Shown here piece after piece: positions 18,106-28,287 of a stretch of 64,000 nt of DNA. The translations under genes were made by a program, and so were the position numbers. Position 1 is the first letter of the stretch. Every line of letters begins with the position of its first letter. The stretch is from contig NZ_CP114909.1 of assembly GCF_027497355.1 (NCBI RefSeq), forward strand, positions 3,739,001 through 3,803,000, written 5' to 3'. The notes under the pieces were generated by a model. That model did not search any database and was not told the origin of the DNA. It saw nothing but the letters and a program-made list of their open reading frames with translations. The DNA comes from Micromonospora sp. WMMA1947 (GTDB lineage: Bacteria; Actinomycetota; Actinomycetes; Mycobacteriales; Micromonosporaceae).

Positions 18106-20568
18106 TCAGCGGGCGGGGCGGCCGGCCAGGAGGCGGCGCGGGCTCCAGCGCGTCATCCGCTGCCGGATCTGACCGCTCGTGGTCACCGCCCTCGCCGACC
18201 GTTCGGCCAGGGCGGTACGCCAGCGTTGCAGCACCGACGGGGGCAGCAGCGCGGCCAGCAGGCGGGTACGGCGGTCCGCGCCGGCCGCCAGCGCGCCCCG
18301 GACCGTGCGCAGCGCCGGCTGCAACTCCGCGTCGGTCAGCGGGTCACGCGCGTAGCGGGCGCGTTCCTCGGCGCGGCCGAGCAGGCGTACCCCGGTCGCG
18401 GCGTCGCCCTTCTCGGCGAGCGCCTCCCGGGCCAGCCGCTCGGCGGTCGCGCGCGGGGTCTCCGTGCGGTCCACCCGGACGTGGAAGTCGACGAGCGTGT
18501 CGAGCAGCTCGTCCCAGGCGGCGTGCGCGTCGGCGCGGGCCGCCTCGGCGTCCACGCCGACCACGACCTCCCGCGTCTCGCCGCGCTGGCCCGGCACCGG
18601 CAGCGCGGTGGCCGCGGGTGTGACGGTCCGGACGCGACGGCGGCGCAGGGCGGAGCGGCGCAGGGCCGGTACGGCGAGCAGCGCCAGCAGCGCCAGCGCA
18701 CCAGCCAGCCACCACGGCCAGACGGGGCTCTCCTCGGCGGGCGCGCCCTGGTCCAGCGTCAGGCCCTGGTCGGTGTCCTTGTCGAGCCGGTCGGCCTCGT
18801 TCGGCCCGGCCGACGGGCCGGCCGCGTCGGGAGCGGTGGTGCTGCCGGCCGAGGGGGTGACCTCCTCGGGGGCGTCGACGTCCGGCGCCCAGGCCGAACG
18901 GACCGAGCCCGTCACGGCCGCCGCCGGGGTGGCGTCGAACGGCACCCAGCCGATCCCGTTGAAGTTGACTTCGGTCCAGGCGTGCAGGTTGCGGTTGGTC
19001 AGCACGTACGTGCCGCTGTCGGCCTTGCTGCCGTTGGTGAACCCGACCGCCACCCGGGCCGGGATCCCGGCGGCCCGGACCAGCCAGGCCATCGCCGCGG
19101 CGTACTGCTGGCAGTAGCCGACCTTGGTGGCGAGGAAGTCGGTGATGTCCTCCCCGCTGCTGCCGTTACGGGTGGACAGCGCGTAGGTGAAGCCGTTCTC
19201 CACGGAGAAGTAGTCGTAGATCGCCCGGACCTTGTCGTAGTCGTTCGACTTGCCCTTGACCAGTTCCGCGACCAGTTCCTCGACGGCCGGGACGGACGGC
19301 CGCTCGGTCTGCTGGCGCATCAGCGGGCTGTCCGAGGGCAGTGACCGGGCCGCGCGCAGCGCCGCCGGACTGTAGGTGGACCGGACGTAGTCGAACGAGT
19401 AGTTCTTGCCGCGGGCGGTGTCCCGCTTGGAGAAGATGACCTGCTGGCTCTCGTCGTACAGCCAGTTGCCGTTGAGGTCGTCGGCCTTGACCGGCTCGGT
19501 GTAGACCGGCAGCAACGGCATGTTCAGGTTCTTCGTCACCTCGACGGTGGCGCGGTAGCGCTGCCGGTCGACGCCGCGCGGGGCGTTGTCGACCGGGTCG
19601 GACAGCGAACGGGAGATCGACTTCCCGGTCGGCACCCGCGCCTGGAAGCCGCTCGGCCGCAGGTCGTCCACCACGCCCAGGCGCAGGTAGAACGGGGCCG
19701 TCTCGTTGGTGCTGACCTTGACCAGATCGACTTCCTCGCTCTGGTTGAGCTGACCGCTGAGCGCCGCGAACAGGTCGACCCGGCCGGAGCTGCCGCCCTG
19801 GCCCGGCCGCCCGTTGCCCTCGCCGGGCCCGGCGCCGACGTTGTTCAGCAGCCCGCCGGTCATCCCGGGCACTGCCAGCGGCAGCGCCACCGCGGCGATC
19901 ACACCGACCACCGCGAGCCGCCGTCCGGCCGCGGCGAGCGGGGACGCCTCCCAGACGTCGACGTCGCGGCCCTCGCCGGTGAACCGGCGGCCGAACCGGC
20001 GTACCCGGTCGACGTTGTCGGTGACCAGCAGCCAGAGGTAACCGGCAGCACCCACCACGAACGGGGTGGCCGGGACGCTGTCCACGTACACCGCGACCGG
20101 CACCGAGTAGATGGCGAGCATCGGCAGGCCGGCCAGCGCGGGCCGGCGCAGCCCGACCGCGAGCACGTCCACCACCACCGCCACCGCGCCGATGCCGAGC
20201 ACCGCGAGGAACAGCAGCGAGTCGACGTCCGGCACCTGTACGCCGTACGAGCGCATGTCCTGCAGCGACGCCTGGAGCAGGTCGCCGAAGTGGCCGAACG
20301 TCGCCGGGGTCGGCACGAACGCGAGCAGTTCGGTGCCGCCGGGGAAGACCCAGGTCAGGCCCAGGGTCAGCCCGGCCAGCATGGCCAGCACCTGCCCCCA
20401 CAGCGGTAGCCGGCCGAGACGGCTCAGCGCGGCCGAGCCGGCCACCACGGCGACCACGACGGCGGCCTGGATCAGCCAGGTCCAGCGCTCGAAGATCGCC
20501 GACAGCGGGGCCGCCGCCAGCAGCGTCGCCGCCGCGGCGACGAAGCCGATGTTGCGGTGCGGGGTCAC
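18106..20568 (-). CDS. Transglutaminase-like membrane protein (TgpA/DUF3488 type)
   Basis: The 820-residue protein has an N-terminal block of about six membrane helices (from residue 8 to about 230), an extracytoplasmic transglutaminase domain and a final membrane helix near 615-640 with a DUF4129-like cytoplasmic tail. The catalytic triad is visible: Cys in KVGYCQQYAAAMAW near 484, His in NLHAWTEVNF near 529 and Asp in WVPFDATP near 544. It forms the third gene of a moxR-DUF58-tgpA operon, an arrangement found across bacteria and linked to envelope processing. The true substrate is not known. Confidence 0.88.
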   Translation of the reverse strand: MTPHRNIGFVAAAATLLAAAPLSAIFERWTWLIQAAVVVAVVAGSAALSRLGRLPLWGQVLAMLAGLTLGLTWVFPGGTELLAFVPTPATFGHFGDLLQASLQDMRSYGVQVPDVDSLLFLAVLGIGAVAVVVDVLAVGLRRPALAGLPMLAIYSVPVAVYVDSVPATPFVVGAAGYLWLLVTDNVDRVRRFGRRFTGEGRDVDVWEASPLAAAGRRLAVVGVIAAVALPLAVPGMTGGLLNNVGAGPGEGNGRPGQGGSSGRVDLFAALSGQLNQSEEVDLVKVSTNETAPFYLRLGVVDDLRPSGFQARVPTGKSISRSLSDPVDNAPRGVDRQRYRATVEVTKNLNMPLLPVYTEPVKADDLNGNWLYDESQQVIFSKRDTARGKNYSFDYVRSTYSPAALRAARSLPSDSPLMRQQTERPSVPAVEELVAELVKGKSNDYDKVRAIYDYFSVENGFTYALSTRNGSSGEDITDFLATKVGYCQQYAAAMAWLVRAAGIPARVAVGFTNGSKADSGTYVLTNRNLHAWTEVNFNGIGWVPFDATPAAAVTGSVRSAWAPDVDAPEEVTPSAGSTTAPDAAGPSAGPNEADRLDKDTDQGLTLDQGAPAEESPVWPWWLAGALALLALLAVPALRRSALRRRRVRTVTPAATALPVPGQRGETREVVVGVDAEAARADAHAAWDELLDTLVDFHVRVDRTETPRATAERLAREALAEKGDAATGVRLLGRAEERARYARDPLTDAELQPALRTVRGALAAGADRRTRLLAALLPPSVLQRWRTALAERSARAVTTSGQIRQRMTRWSPRRLLAGRPAR

Positions 20569-20584
20569 AGGACCATCCCTCCGG

Positions 20585-21883
20585 TCATCGTCGTCCGCCG
20601 GCCACCGTCTCGGCCATGGCCGCCCGCAGCGCGAAGCCCTGCGAGCCCCGTCCGGCCTGCGGCCACAGCATCGGCAGCCGGGTGCCGTGCTCCACCCCGA
20701 TGACCCGCCAGCCGCTCTGCAGCAGCGTGAGCGCGGCGGCGCCGTGTGCCCGCTCCGCCTCGGCCCGGGCGTTCGGCGGCAGGTTGAGCCAGGTGTTGCT
20801 GTCGAGCAGGAACGCCACGCAGGTGGCGCCGTTGCCGCGCAACCCGGCCAGCAGTTCCGCCTCGGCGGTGCCGAGCGTGCCGAGCAGCGCGATGATCAGG
20901 CCGCCGTCGGCCCGTTGCCGGACCTGCTGCACCAGCGTGGTGATCTCACCGCGCCGGTCCAGGTGAACGTCGGCGAGGTGGTCGAGAAGCAGTCCCTCAC
21001 CGCCTGCCTCGGTGGCACCGACATCGGCGCCGTTGCCGGTGACCAGCCGCAGCTTGTAGCCGGCCTCGCGCAGGTGCACGGCGATGCTGGCGGCCGCCGA
21101 CACCGCCCACTCGAAGCTCGCAGTCGGGCCCTCGCCCCGGTGCCCGCCGGCGCGGGTGTCGAGCACCACCGTGGCGCGGCTCTCCCACGGCTGCTCCTCG
21201 CGGCGCACCATCAGCTCGCCGGTGCGGGCGGTGGACTTCCAGTGCACCCGGCGCAGGTCGTCACCCATCCGGTACTCCCGGGTGGCGGCGTCGTCCTCGC
21301 CGTGCACCGCCACCGAGCGGGCCCGGCTGTCGCCGCTGCCGGCGTACTCGCCGGGAAGCCGCACCGACGGCAGCGGGGTGACCTGCGGGATCACCGTGAG
21401 GTGGTCGGTGCTGGGGAACGACCGGGTCAGCTCGCACAGCCCGAACGGGTCGGTCAGCCGGATCACCAGCGGGCCCACCTCGTAGCGGCCGCGCACGTCC
21501 GCGCGGACCGTGTACGCCACGGAGCTGGCCTGGTGCGCGCCGAGCCGCTCCAGCACCACCCGGGGCCGGCTGCCCAGCGCGTACGGCAGGCGGTCCTCCA
21601 GCAGCAGCGTGCCGGTGGGCAGCCGGGACAGGTTCTGCAACCGCAGCACCACCCGGGAACTGGCGCCGACCGGCACCCGGTGCGGCTCCAGTGACCGGTT
21701 GCAGGCCAGCTTGTATCGGCTGCGCCCGACGTACGCGGCGGCCAGCAGCGGCAGCACGGCGAGCAGGACCGCCACCCGGAGCAGGTCCTTCTCGCCGAGG
21801 ATGCCGGCGGAGATCGCGGCGGCCACCGCGGCCGCCAGGAAGGAGCGGCCGCGGGTGGTCAGCCCACGCAGGCCGTCGCGCAC
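20585..21883 (-). CDS. DUF58 domain protein
   Basis: This 432-residue protein has two membrane helices near the N-terminus, a beta-rich middle, then the DUF58 signature GDDLRRVHWKSTARTGELMV followed by VVLDTRAGG, which opens a von Willebrand A-like domain. DUF58 proteins are partners of MoxR ATPases. GTG at 21883 is one base after the moxR stop, so the two are translationally linked. It ends 16 bases before the transglutaminase start. Function inferred from the operon only: membrane scaffold or metal-dependent adaptor. Confidence 0.85.
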   Translation of the reverse strand: MRDGLRGLTTRGRSFLAAAVAAAISAGILGEKDLLRVAVLLAVLPLLAAAYVGRSRYKLACNRSLEPHRVPVGASSRVVLRLQNLSRLPTGTLLLEDRLPYALGSRPRVVLERLGAHQASSVAYTVRADVRGRYEVGPLVIRLTDPFGLCELTRSFPSTDHLTVIPQVTPLPSVRLPGEYAGSGDSRARSVAVHGEDDAATREYRMGDDLRRVHWKSTARTGELMVRREEQPWESRATVVLDTRAGGHRGEGPTASFEWAVSAAASIAVHLREAGYKLRLVTGNGADVGATEAGGEGLLLDHLADVHLDRRGEITTLVQQVRQRADGGLIIALLGTLGTAEAELLAGLRGNGATCVAFLLDSNTWLNLPPNARAEAERAHGAAALTLLQSGWRVIGVEHGTRLPMLWPQAGRGSQGFALRAAMAETVAGGRR

Positions 21884-21884
21884 C

Positions 21885-22940
<1,056 letters not shown>

Positions 22941-23177
22941 GGGCCTCCTCCTCGTCGCCTGGACGGCAGCTCTTTATAGAGCACCTGGACCCGCCGTTGG
23001 GTTCGCGACGCCGAGCCACGTCTGCCGCAGTAATCTCACTGGCCTCTCAGGCTAACCATGTTTGTCGTTACTGCCGACTCCCGCAGGTGGTCGGTCGGTT
23101 ACGCCCGGAATATTCGCCGGACCGGGGGACCGGCCGCCGAGGGTGGAACGGGCGCGCCGCCGCCGAGGGGTGCGAGG
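22941..23177. other. Divergent spacer between moxR and the leuS leader
   Basis: The region before the leuS promoter holds the moxR Shine-Dalgarno and a small GCTCT-TTAT-AGAGC hairpin (22969-22982). A TTAGCCT on the minus strand near 23055 may be the moxR -10. I saw no gene in it. Confidence 0.5.
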
Positions 23178-23183
23178 TACACT
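23178..23183 (+). promoter_or_regulatory. -10 element of the leuS transcript
   Basis: TACACT ends seven bases before an ATG at 23190. Transcription would begin at or next to that ATG, so the leader peptide would be translated from a leaderless mRNA. No clear -35 is seen. Confidence 0.5.
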
Positions 23184-23189
23184 GCCTGC

Positions 23190-23228
23190 ATGGCCGGGTT
23201 CTTCCTGCTTCTTACCGAGCCGTGTTGA
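23190..23228 (+). CDS. leuS leader peptide (12 aa, three consecutive Leu codons)
   Basis: The frame encodes [12 protein letters not shown] and stops with TGA at 23226-23228. Three adjacent leucine codons (CTG CTT CTT, 23205-23213) occur just upstream of a hairpin and an intrinsic terminator, and the next gene is leucyl-tRNA synthetase. This is the classical layout of ribosome-mediated attenuation: shortage of charged Leu-tRNA would stall the ribosome on the Leu codons and relieve termination. The peptide itself has no further expected role. Confidence 0.65.
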
Positions 23229-23253
23229 TGCGCTGAACGCGCGACAGCACGGC
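23219..23253 (+). promoter_or_regulatory. leuS: Leader hairpin before the leuS terminator
   Basis: A nine-base stem (23219-23227 with 23245-23253, one G-U pair) begins within the last leader codons and ends two bases before the terminator. A ribosome finishing the leader peptide would mask its left arm; a ribosome stalled on the Leu codons would leave it free. I did not find an unambiguous antiterminator that overlaps the terminator arm. Confidence 0.45.
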
Positions 23254-23254
23254 C

Positions 23255-23280
23255 GCCCCTCCTGCGCGAGGGGCTTTTTT
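23255..23280 (+). terminator. leuS: Intrinsic terminator in the leuS leader
   Basis: GCCCCTC and GAGGGGC pair over seven bases around a six-base loop and are followed directly by six T. It is the only textbook intrinsic terminator I saw in the window. It sits 58 bases before the leuS ATG and downstream of the leader peptide, so it should limit leuS transcription. Confidence 0.8.
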
Positions 23281-23337
23281 GTGCCCGCAGCAGACCGCCC
23301 ACAATTTTTTCGAATCGTTCCGCGCCGAGGAGACGCC

Positions 23338-26178
<2,841 letters not shown>

Positions 26179-26197
26179 CCGGCGGCCGTGTGCCGGA

Positions 26198-26223
26198 GGC
26201 GCGTCCCGTACGCGGGGCGCGCC
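26198..26223. terminator. Bidirectional hairpin between leuS and the lipoprotein gene
   Basis: Eleven-base arms (26198-26208 and 26213-26223) with one G-U pair and a four-base loop lie between convergent genes. It could end transcription from both sides, although no T-run is present. Confidence 0.5.
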
Positions 26224-26252
26224 TCAACCCGCCGGCGGCTCCCCGTGGTCCG

Positions 26253-27449
26253 TCACGGGCACGCCGGCAGCGGCGGCAGCCGGTCCAGGCGAAGCAGCGA
26301 GTAGGCGTGCCGCTCCGGGGGGACCTCGTTGTCGTCCGGGTCCATCAGCAGCGCCGAGCCCGAGACCACCGCGTGGGCGTGGTCCGCGGTCAGCCGGACG
26401 TACGAGCCGCTGCGCAGGTCGGCCACGTACCAGCCCTCGTGGTAGTCGAAGAGCACCAGATCGCCGACGGCGGTGGGTCCGGCGATCCGGTGGAACGGGT
26501 CGTCGATCGGTGGCCTGGCGCCGGGCGGCAGCGACGGCGTGGCCGGCGGGGGAGGGGTGACCCGCAGGACCCGCACGGGTGCCGTCCAGCCCGGCCGCCA
26601 GACGGTCAGGTCGCGCTCGTCCCGGGACACCCAGGCCGTGGTGCGGCCGTCCGTGGTCATGTCCACCGGGGTGCCCGGTCCCAGGGCCGGCGGTGCCGGA
26701 GGGCCCGCCGTCCCGTCCGGGCCGATCGCGTTCAGGCGGCCCGTGGCCCTGTCGAACCAGATCAGGTCGGCGCCGCGGAACCCGACAGCGCTCACCTGTC
26801 CGGTCGCCACAGCGCGGACCGTTCCGGCCGCCAGGTCGTGCAGGGTCAGCTCGGCCCGGTCCTTGTCGAGGATCCGGGTCACGGCGAGCTTCCCGTCCTG
26901 CAACAGGAACGGGACGGCCCTCTGCCCGGCGTTCGCGACCTGCCGTGGCTCGGCCCCGGTCTCCGCGTCCCAGACGAAGAGCTCGGCGCTTCCTTCCCCG
27001 TGCGGCGCCGCACGGGACAGGTCGGTGCGCGCGTAGACCAGCCAGCGCCCGTCGAAGTCGCCCCACAGCAGGAAGGTGAACAGGTCCGGCATGGTGGCCA
27101 CGACCCGTCGGTCGCCGTTCTTCTCCTGCTTGACCAGCAGCATCGGGAGACCGTCGCGCTGCACGGTGGCGAACGCGGAGCGGCCGTCCGGTGCCGGGGC
27201 GAACCCTGACCACCTCTCCCCGGGCTCCTTCGGCAGCCGGCTGTCCCGGACCGCGTCCTGCCAGCTCTGCGGCACGGTGACCAGGCAGAAGTCGGCACGC
27301 GGCGGGGCGGTCACCTGCGTCGACGGCGTTCCCTCGGTGACCGGGGCGGCCGTCGGGTCTCCCGGAGTGCAGGCGGCGAGCAGCGCCGCCGCGAGGACCG
27401 GAGCGAGGACGGCGGCGCTCCGGACGCGGGCTCGGGACGAGGGCCTCAT
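26253..27449 (-). CDS. Secreted lipoprotein with beta-propeller-like repeats
   Basis: The 398-residue precursor has a basic N-terminus, a hydrophobic core and a lipobox LLAAC (about residues 23-27), so it should be lipid-anchored outside the membrane. The mature part shows repeated strand patterns such as WLVYARTDL, ELFVWDAETG and LTLHDLAAGTVRAVA, like a propeller built from WD40- or TolB-type blades. No enzyme motif is seen. ATG at 27449 is preceded by TAGCAT eight bases upstream, a possible leaderless start. Function unknown. Confidence 0.75.
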   Translation of the reverse strand: MRPSSRARVRSAAVLAPVLAAALLAACTPGDPTAAPVTEGTPSTQVTAPPRADFCLVTVPQSWQDAVRDSRLPKEPGERWSGFAPAPDGRSAFATVQRDGLPMLLVKQEKNGDRRVVATMPDLFTFLLWGDFDGRWLVYARTDLSRAAPHGEGSAELFVWDAETGAEPRQVANAGQRAVPFLLQDGKLAVTRILDKDRAELTLHDLAAGTVRAVATGQVSAVGFRGADLIWFDRATGRLNAIGPDGTAGPPAPPALGPGTPVDMTTDGRTTAWVSRDERDLTVWRPGWTAPVRVLRVTPPPPATPSLPPGARPPIDDPFHRIAGPTAVGDLVLFDYHEGWYVADLRSGSYVRLTADHAHAVVSGSALLMDPDDNEVPPERHAYSLLRLDRLPPLPACP

Positions 27450-27567
27450 GCTCGCGAATGCTAGGGAGCGCCGGTGCCGCGCGGTGCCCGGCGGGCGGGA
27501 TCGTCGTGCGGTCGTTACCGGGCCGGTCCGGAGCTCCTCCGCGTGCTCGTGCGCCTTCGCCGCCGGG

Positions 27568-28287
27568 TCAGCCGGCCGGTCCGGCAGACCGGCGCCGTTC
27601 GGCCCGCCACCAGCGGTGGATGATCAGCACGCTGGCGATCAGGCCGAGGCTGGCCGGCGCGGCCGCGTACCAGTTGATCGAACCGGGCGTGGTCACCGCC
27701 GCGCCGATCGCCGCGTAGCCGATCGCGGTGGGGGCGGAGGCGATCACGCTGCCGGCCAGGAACGGCGCCACCCGGGCGGCGGTGGTGCCGTAGCCGTAGC
27801 TGACCAGCCCGAACCCGGCGATCGGCAGCAGCCGTACGGTGATCACGCCGAAGACGCTCTGCCGGGCGAACCAGCCGTCGAGGCGGGCCAGCCGGCCCCG
27901 TACCCGCTCGGCGACGAAGTCGCGGCCGAGCACCCGGCCCACAGTGAATCCGATGGCCGCCGCCAGCAACGCCGCGCCGAGCGCGTACGCGGCGCCCTGC
28001 ACCGGGCCGAAGATCGCGCCCGCGGCCAGCGTGACGAACGTCCGCGGCACCAGCGCCACCAGCAGCAGCGCGCCGCCGACCACGGCGGCGGGCGGGCCGT
28101 AGCCGCCGAGCGAGTCGGCGAGCCGGGGCAGGTCGGCCGGGTCCGGCCGGGGCACCAGCAGCAGCGTCACGCCGAACCCGGCGAGCAGCAGGAGAAGCAG
28201 CCCGAACCGGCGCGCCGAGGGCTGCCGCAGCAACCCGGCGAGCCGGCGGGCCACCGGTCGCCGCCCCGGCCGGGCGGCGTCGGTCAC
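27568..28287 (-). CDS. TVP38/TMEM64 (SNARE-associated, DedA-like) membrane protein
   Basis: This 239-residue polytopic protein has five to six hydrophobic helices. It carries a family-like re-entrant segment (LAAGAIFGPVQGAAYALGAAL) and RLLPIAGFGLVSYGYG. TVP38/DedA relatives include lipid scramblases; a role in lipid or undecaprenyl-phosphate flipping is possible given the neighbouring peptidoglycan genes but is not shown. GTG at 28287 overlaps the GatD stop (GTGA), so it is coupled to murT-gatD. Confidence 0.8.
   Translation of the reverse strand: MTDAARPGRRPVARRLAGLLRQPSARRFGLLLLLLAGFGVTLLLVPRPDPADLPRLADSLGGYGPPAAVVGGALLLVALVPRTFVTLAAGAIFGPVQGAAYALGAALLAAAIGFTVGRVLGRDFVAERVRGRLARLDGWFARQSVFGVITVRLLPIAGFGLVSYGYGTTAARVAPFLAGSVIASAPTAIGYAAIGAAVTTPGSINWYAAAPASLGLIASVLIIHRWWRAERRRSAGPAG

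Follow-up and report, generated by a model that had tools for sequence, protein, structure and literature searches.

The DNA in front of leuS in Micromonospora sp. WMMA1947 (Micromonosporaceae) raises the question of whether the gene for leucyl-tRNA synthetase is preceded by a transcription attenuator that responds to the charging of Leu-tRNA and, if it is, how a stalled ribosome could allow RNA polymerase to read through the terminator. An earlier note on this DNA proposed such an attenuator, with a leaderless leader peptide, a hairpin and an intrinsic terminator. In this study, the locus was analysed within the whole 64-kb stretch of DNA that contains it, here called the window, and was compared with loci from the same family and class. 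Judging from these sequence comparisons, the element is probably a ribosome-mediated transcription attenuator of leuS and the Micromonospora counterpart of LeuL2 of Streptomyces. The idea of a leuS attenuator is already in print for Streptomyces, and the comparative picture is the new part: a two-species prediction and a one-species annotation become a broadly conserved element with fixed geometry. What emerges is a real, conserved element, predicted to be an attenuator of the published kind, in a further genus and with new constraints from comparison.

Layout of the Leader Region

The features of the locus are given in Table 1, where the name leuS is taken from the earlier note and from leuS in homologous published loci. 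The predicted leaderless-type ORF of 12 codons with three successive Leu codons was borne out; its start codon lies 6 nt behind the TACACT box, and the A of the ATG is the predicted transcription start. The ORF and hairpin P1 overlap by 10 nt, so that the stop codon sits in the 5' strand of P1, a detail absent from the earlier note.

Table 1. Features of the leuS leader locus (positions in the window)
Feature	Position	Strand	Remarks
-10-like box TACACT	23178-23183	+	predicted leaderless promoter; without -35 match
Leader ORF, 12 codons and stop TGA (23226-23228)	23190-23228	+	ATG start at 23190
Leu codons CTG CTT CTT	23205-23213	+	last CTT (23211-23213) ends 5 nt before P1
Hairpin P1, outer arms GCCGTGT / GCACGGC	23219-23253	+	proposed sensor, anti-antiterminator or pause hairpin
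Terminator stem-loop T, GCCCCTC / GAGGGGC	23255-23274	+	7 pairs, loop of 6; 1 nt after P1 in fold
U tract TTTTTT	23275-23280	+	followed by GTGCCC, common in relatives
Candidate antiterminator, GCGaCAG (P1 3' strand) with CUGCGC (T loop)	23241-23267	+	about -7.7 kcal/mol; not supported by covariation
leuS, leucyl-tRNA synthetase, regulated gene	23338-26178	+	ATG at 23338

The fold of 23190-23279 consisted of P1 and T, with an energy of -44.1 kcal/mol (z -3.5; one of 200 shuffles folded at least as well), and a terminator scan of 22900-23400 detected T in two overlapping registers, compared with a mean of 0.4 (sd 0.8) in shuffles. Fold and scan thus confirmed a hairpin followed by an intrinsic terminator with six T ahead of leuS, and P1 was indeed seen to adjoin T without overlapping it. 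A sigma-70 scan of 22900-23400 yielded no -35/-10 pair, so the leader promoter is assigned from the TAnnnT box by itself. The combination of a leaderless-type ORF bearing three successive Leu codons with a terminator within 90 nt occurred once in the window, both strands considered, and did not arise in any of 100 versions of it generated by a first-order Markov model.

T-box regulation of aminoacyl-tRNA synthetase genes is known from other bacteria, according to the available part of PMC1262725, so a leuS T-box or another known leader RNA was considered. No Rfam 15 match at E up to 1 was obtained in 20000-28000, and a search of eight relatives gave one unrelated sub-threshold match and nothing else. 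Moreover, the leader begins with the ORF itself, its length of about 90 nt is too short for a T-box, and we give this explanation practically no credence.

Loci and Search Models

LeuS was found in all 150 genomes of the family with a 220-aa piece as query, and the upstream DNA was examined in 90 of these together with five Micromonospora loci, making 95 family loci. While the family set was drawn by LeuS alone, the class set was preselected by the RNA model R1, which was built from 55 family sequences only. R1 matched at E up to 0.01 in 133 of 296 class genomes, non-leuS matches included; among the 20 listed of the 163 genomes with no match, all came from another family of the same order. We examined 107 R1 loci: LeuS lay beside the match in 89, 17 stood before ilvB-, cimA- or ilvA-like genes, and one ended at a contig edge. 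A related-locus scan returned many matches from Bacteroidota and served mainly for names.

Segmentation succeeded for 92 of the 95 family loci. A strict parse of P1 and T, which demanded seven of seven P1 pairs and T[TC] shortly before P1, was passed by 167 of 184 loci, in keeping with the expectation that the terminator would be conserved. Among the 17 loci dropped, 12 carried CTT and one CTC 5 nt before GCC, one (L081) had CTT 6 nt before P1 as judged by eye, one was a cut contig (L237), and two (L086 and L105) were without leader.

Conservation of the Leader Peptide and Control Codon

A leaderless-type ORF with two or more consecutive Leu codons preceded leuS in 93 of 95 family loci, L086 and L105 being the only ones without it. 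It was also present in 87 of 89 class leuS loci, a figure that is circular as a frequency because these loci were chosen by R1. A simple filter applied to 12 loci outside the family (L126-L136 and L138) found no convincing leader. Although found widely, the element is by no means universal. Locus L086 (genome G087) represents a natural loss: its leuS keeps a TATGCT box and the terminator, but start codon and Leu run are gone and little of P1 remains.

In the 180 leaders, the TAnnnT box was separated from the start codon by 6 nt in 113 cases and by 7 nt in 67, in a search that allowed 4-9 nt and favoured 6.5, and a second box was seen in none. The promoter that the earlier note placed at 23178 is therefore matched both by TACACT in the window and by a box at this distance in all 180 leaders. 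Start codons were ATG in 141 and GTG in 39, and the leader was 12 codons long in 101 and 11 in 41. The Leu run was likewise conserved, its longest stretch being three or four codons in 146 leaders and two in 34. With the promoter, the Leu run and the terminator, the three features whose lack was to speak against an attenuator and which sequence can address, all results came out in favour and support the attenuator as predicted. The stop was TGA in 150, TAG in 29 and TAA in one; since stop codons vary while hairpin arms stay, the RNA rather than the end of the peptide appears to be kept. A conserved peptide end (PC or PR) was rejected as evidence on the same ground, because TAG replaces it in 29 of the 180 leaders and the RNA arms stay.

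The triplet ending 5 nt before P1 was CTT in 161 and CTC in six of the 167 parsed loci (family: CTT 91, CTC 1, n = 92; outside the family: CTT 70, CTC 5, n = 75), counts which, like the pair counts below, lean towards the model because of the demands of the strict parse. The triplet before it was more varied, with CTC 93, CTT 54, CTG 19 and CGC 1. A single tRNA would decode both CUU and CUC in these bacteria. CTT was present in 178 of the 180 leaders and made up 249 of 531 leader Leu codons, compared with 4 of 291 in five coding sequences of the window. With the footprint of the E. coli ribosome and CUU in the A site, the front edge would reach about 5 nt into P1, and the outer GCCG of P1, which lies under this modelled edge, hardly varies. 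The fixed geometry makes the CUU codon, the 5-nt gap and the P1 base sharply testable.

Hairpin P1 and Terminator T

In the 167 parsed loci, P1 pairs 1-3 were invariant, pair 5 was TA in 84, CG in 77 and TG in 6, and pair 7 was CG in 148, TA in 11, TG in 6, GT in one and AT in one. On a LeuS tree of the 126 parsed loci whose LeuS piece was long enough, two-sided changes from pair to pair numbered 1, 2, 3, 8 and 8 for P1 pairs 4 to 8, it being understood that the parse required complementarity of pairs 1-7 and losses there could not show. In a permutation test on 155 distinct loci, the native arms of both hairpins formed better duplexes than permuted ones (P1: -19.10 against -16.24; T: -11.92 against -10.68), with 0 of 200 permutations as good in either case.

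Behind the U tract, RTGCCC or ATGTCC often stood at a constant distance from the stem's GGGG. Counted over the leuS terminators, a loose form of this pattern fits 113 of the 167 loci, and the window instance lies at 23275-23286. The pattern resembles an elemental pause motif.

Search for an Antiterminator

The remark of the earlier note that the antiterminator is not obvious holds, as the candidate in Table 1 neither covaries nor displaces T in folds with a modelled ribosome. In the window locus, this candidate has 5-6 bp and reaches -7.7 kcal/mol, against -13.5 kcal/mol for T. Across the 155 loci, native pairing of the P1 3' strand with the T loop (-7.11) was slightly weaker than permuted pairing (-7.39; 199 of 200 permutations were no worse), and with the T 5' strand and loop together all 200 permutations were at least as good. 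No pairing signal was found between the P1 5' strand and the T loop, or between the post-T region and either the P1 3' strand or the T 3' strand (200 permutations, 155 loci). Compared with shuffles, the P1 3' strand was more complementary to the linker, T 5' strand and loop in just 37 of 155 loci, and slightly more complementary to the T loop alone in 126 of 155. The candidate appeared with four or more pairs in 67 of 155 best folds lacking T.

Three pairings gave weak signals (z about -3), namely Leu codons with the T 3' strand (4 of 200 permutations), the leader start with the post-T region (1 of 200) and the P1 loop with the T loop (0 of 200). They are not claimed here, being small beside the controls in the same test (z -16.6 and -24.7), and the permutation ignores relatedness. 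The first also fails, by eye, in the Streptomyces type with its CTT CTG CTT.

When 5 nt of P1 were masked to model a ribosome on CUU, T was complete in 152 of 155 folds, and losing it would cost a median of 11.7 kcal/mol. In the window locus, the upper part of P1 survives this mask, and the candidate antiterminator is an intermediate only when the mask extends as far as a ribosome at the stop codon. In these fold models, a stop-codon ribosome would free the P1 3' strand more than a CUU ribosome, which is opposite to classical logic. As the candidate pairing lacks covariation and T stays intact under the CUU mask, the models point to either a kinetic, lineage-specific antiterminator or a need for P1 itself in termination.

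The persistence of T in the modelled stalled state would also suit a terminator that sets a fixed fraction of read-through, with a leader peptide of no regulatory role, and altered codons in the ilvB leader of S. coelicolor are reportedly without effect (PMC1262725, citing others, in its available part). This reading is quite improbable, because the Leu run, the position of CTT and the spacing are kept across many genera, none of which a constitutive terminator needs.

A stronger contender, which we hold to be a serious possibility while leaning to the other side, is that P1 and T act as one composite terminator, or that P1 pauses RNA polymerase as T needs. A ribosome on CUU would then break the P1 base and weaken termination directly, and no antiterminator would be needed, in agreement with a candidate that neither covaries nor competes. 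In 157 of 167 parsed loci, a linker of 0-2 nt separated P1 and T, though such adjacency could be simple compaction. Additionally, 160 of the 167 loci had TG in the T loop or at its edge, most frequently 10 or 11 nt behind the 3' end of P1, a position which we take to resemble a hairpin-stabilised pause site. The U tracts are poorer outside the family (5.44 against 6.32 T in 8 nt), which fits this reading; the window T with its six T looks strong alone, which speaks against it. Hairpin and terminator are similarly adjacent in the cimA leaders described below, but the cimA terminators examined are without the TG feature, and the literature examined, as far as its available parts go, offers no direct precedent.

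Proposed Mechanism

For the attenuator that we favour, the leader, the CUU codon, P1, T and their spacing are supported by the comparison of sequences, and from them we infer a leaderless start in this organism, ribosome stalling and read-through. Transcription would begin with the A of the leader ATG, a ribosome then loading on the leaderless 5' end. With ample charged Leu-tRNA, the ribosome would pass the Leu codons and leave, P1 and then T would form, and transcription would mostly stop at the U tract. When Leu-tRNA is uncharged, above all the isoacceptor for CUU and CUC, the ribosome would stall with CUU in the A site and its front edge would extend over roughly 5 nt at the start of P1. 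The P1 base could then not form, T would fail more often and leuS would be transcribed. The favoured link from the loss of P1 to the loss of T would be a short-lived pairing of the P1 3' strand with the first half of T.

The Trp leader of E. coli combines control codons, a stalled ribosome, competing hairpins and an intrinsic terminator; the leuS element differs in being without a Shine-Dalgarno sequence and without a clear 2:3 antiterminator. If no antiterminator exists, the route from stalled ribosome to read-through would be simpler than in the trp textbook case.

Relation to Published Attenuators

Attenuators before leuS were predicted in S. coelicolor and S. avermitilis and called classical (Seliverstov et al. 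2005, PMC1262725); in the available part of that paper, the claim covers these two Streptomyces species. They have a Leu-codon leader ORF and a terminator, as here, but the paper names an antiterminator hairpin (its Fig. 4), whereas our comparison supports none in the leuS element. In S. lividans TK24, leuL2 before leuS encodes MRAVRLLLSEPR followed by a stop, is transcribed leaderless and is followed by a hairpin and a U stretch, and most leaderless genes of that species have a TAnnnT-type box without a strong -35 (PMC8079986, in the part available). The likeness to our element extends to a 12-aa peptide with three Leu, predicted to be leaderless here, and to the hairpin and the U stretch. 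LeuL2 differs in its P1 arm (GCCGCGC against GCCGTGC/T), its longer P1 loop, its peptide end (PR against PC) and its Leu codons CTT CTG CTT. Streptomyces-like loci in our set, such as L225 and L301, carry MRAVRLLLSEPR exactly and align with the window element, and R1 finds the MRAVRLLLSEPR loci at E of about 1e-12, which indicates homology to the Streptomyces element.

The ilvBNC attenuator of C. glutamicum, as described in the accessible portion of PMC11857589, is similar in its leader start one nt from the transcript start, its terminator, its weak antiterminator and its conserved control codons CUU and GUA. Its antiterminator has a calculated energy of -6.8 kcal/mol and an effective one of about -1.5 kcal/mol, and the -7.7 kcal/mol of the leuS candidate is near the calculated value. 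There, the terminator shares a GCC trinucleotide with the antiterminator, whereas P1 and T of leuS do not overlap.

Leaders before Other Branched-Chain Genes

Weaker R1 matches adjoin other branched-chain genes. Ten of the 17 non-leuS loci were typed by NCBIfam pieces as citramalate synthase (L252, L264, L273, L275, L295), acetolactate synthase (L246, L255, L267, L311) and threonine ammonia-lyase (L271), and the other seven are ilvB-like by motif only. At L271:63-164, a leader encoding MPQHLMIIN and a stop, a hairpin and a terminator precede the threonine ammonia-lyase-like gene; the best homologue of this enzyme in the organism's own genome has no T run in the 600 nt upstream.

Attenuators of ilvB are already known (PMC1262725, PMC11857589 and PMC10272879, in their available parts). 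Our literature search on cimA or citramalate synthase with a leader peptide returned no report of such a leader, and the S. lividans leader list, in the part available, does not name cimA (PMC8079986). In our cimA survey, Ile-rich leaders were present in 46 of 60 loci, L377 being discounted by eye. They look leaderless, with ATT ATT common and a GC hairpin abutting the terminator (L321-L376 and L378-L380 in part, and the five citramalate synthase loci above). Ile-Ile occurred in 43 of the 46, and of 101 Ile codons 71 were ATT, compared with 0 of 74 in coding sequences of the window; as these ORFs were picked for Ile, only the codon choice is informative. The cimA leaders would add isoleucine synthesis by the citramalate route to the genes under ribosome-mediated attenuation.

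Rather tentatively, and with the balance against it, we suggest that branched-chain attenuators throughout the class Actinomycetes (leuS, ilvB, cimA and perhaps ilvA) share one design, in which a leaderless peptide carries a rare control codon (CUU, GUA or AUU) just before a hairpin that abuts the terminator without overlap. There would be no dedicated antiterminator; a stalled ribosome would break the P1 base, P1 being part of the terminator or needed by it, and citramalate synthase, with its Ile-codon attenuator, would join the group as a new member.

By eye, cimA in the organism's own genome (L321, G000:C1 near 629961-630398) is preceded by a GTG-started leader, MTSFVLIISS and a stop, then a hairpin and a T run, and its last branched-chain codon ends 8 nt before P1. 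To assign a 5-nt gap between codon and P1 to all non-leuS leaders would accordingly be too strong. The own-genome ilvB (L312, G000:C1 near 643374-643844) has, also by eye, the leader MSSNRSPRVLT and a stop, with GTA CTT, a hairpin and a T run. After the terminator of this ilvB leader comes TTTTTTGTTGCC.
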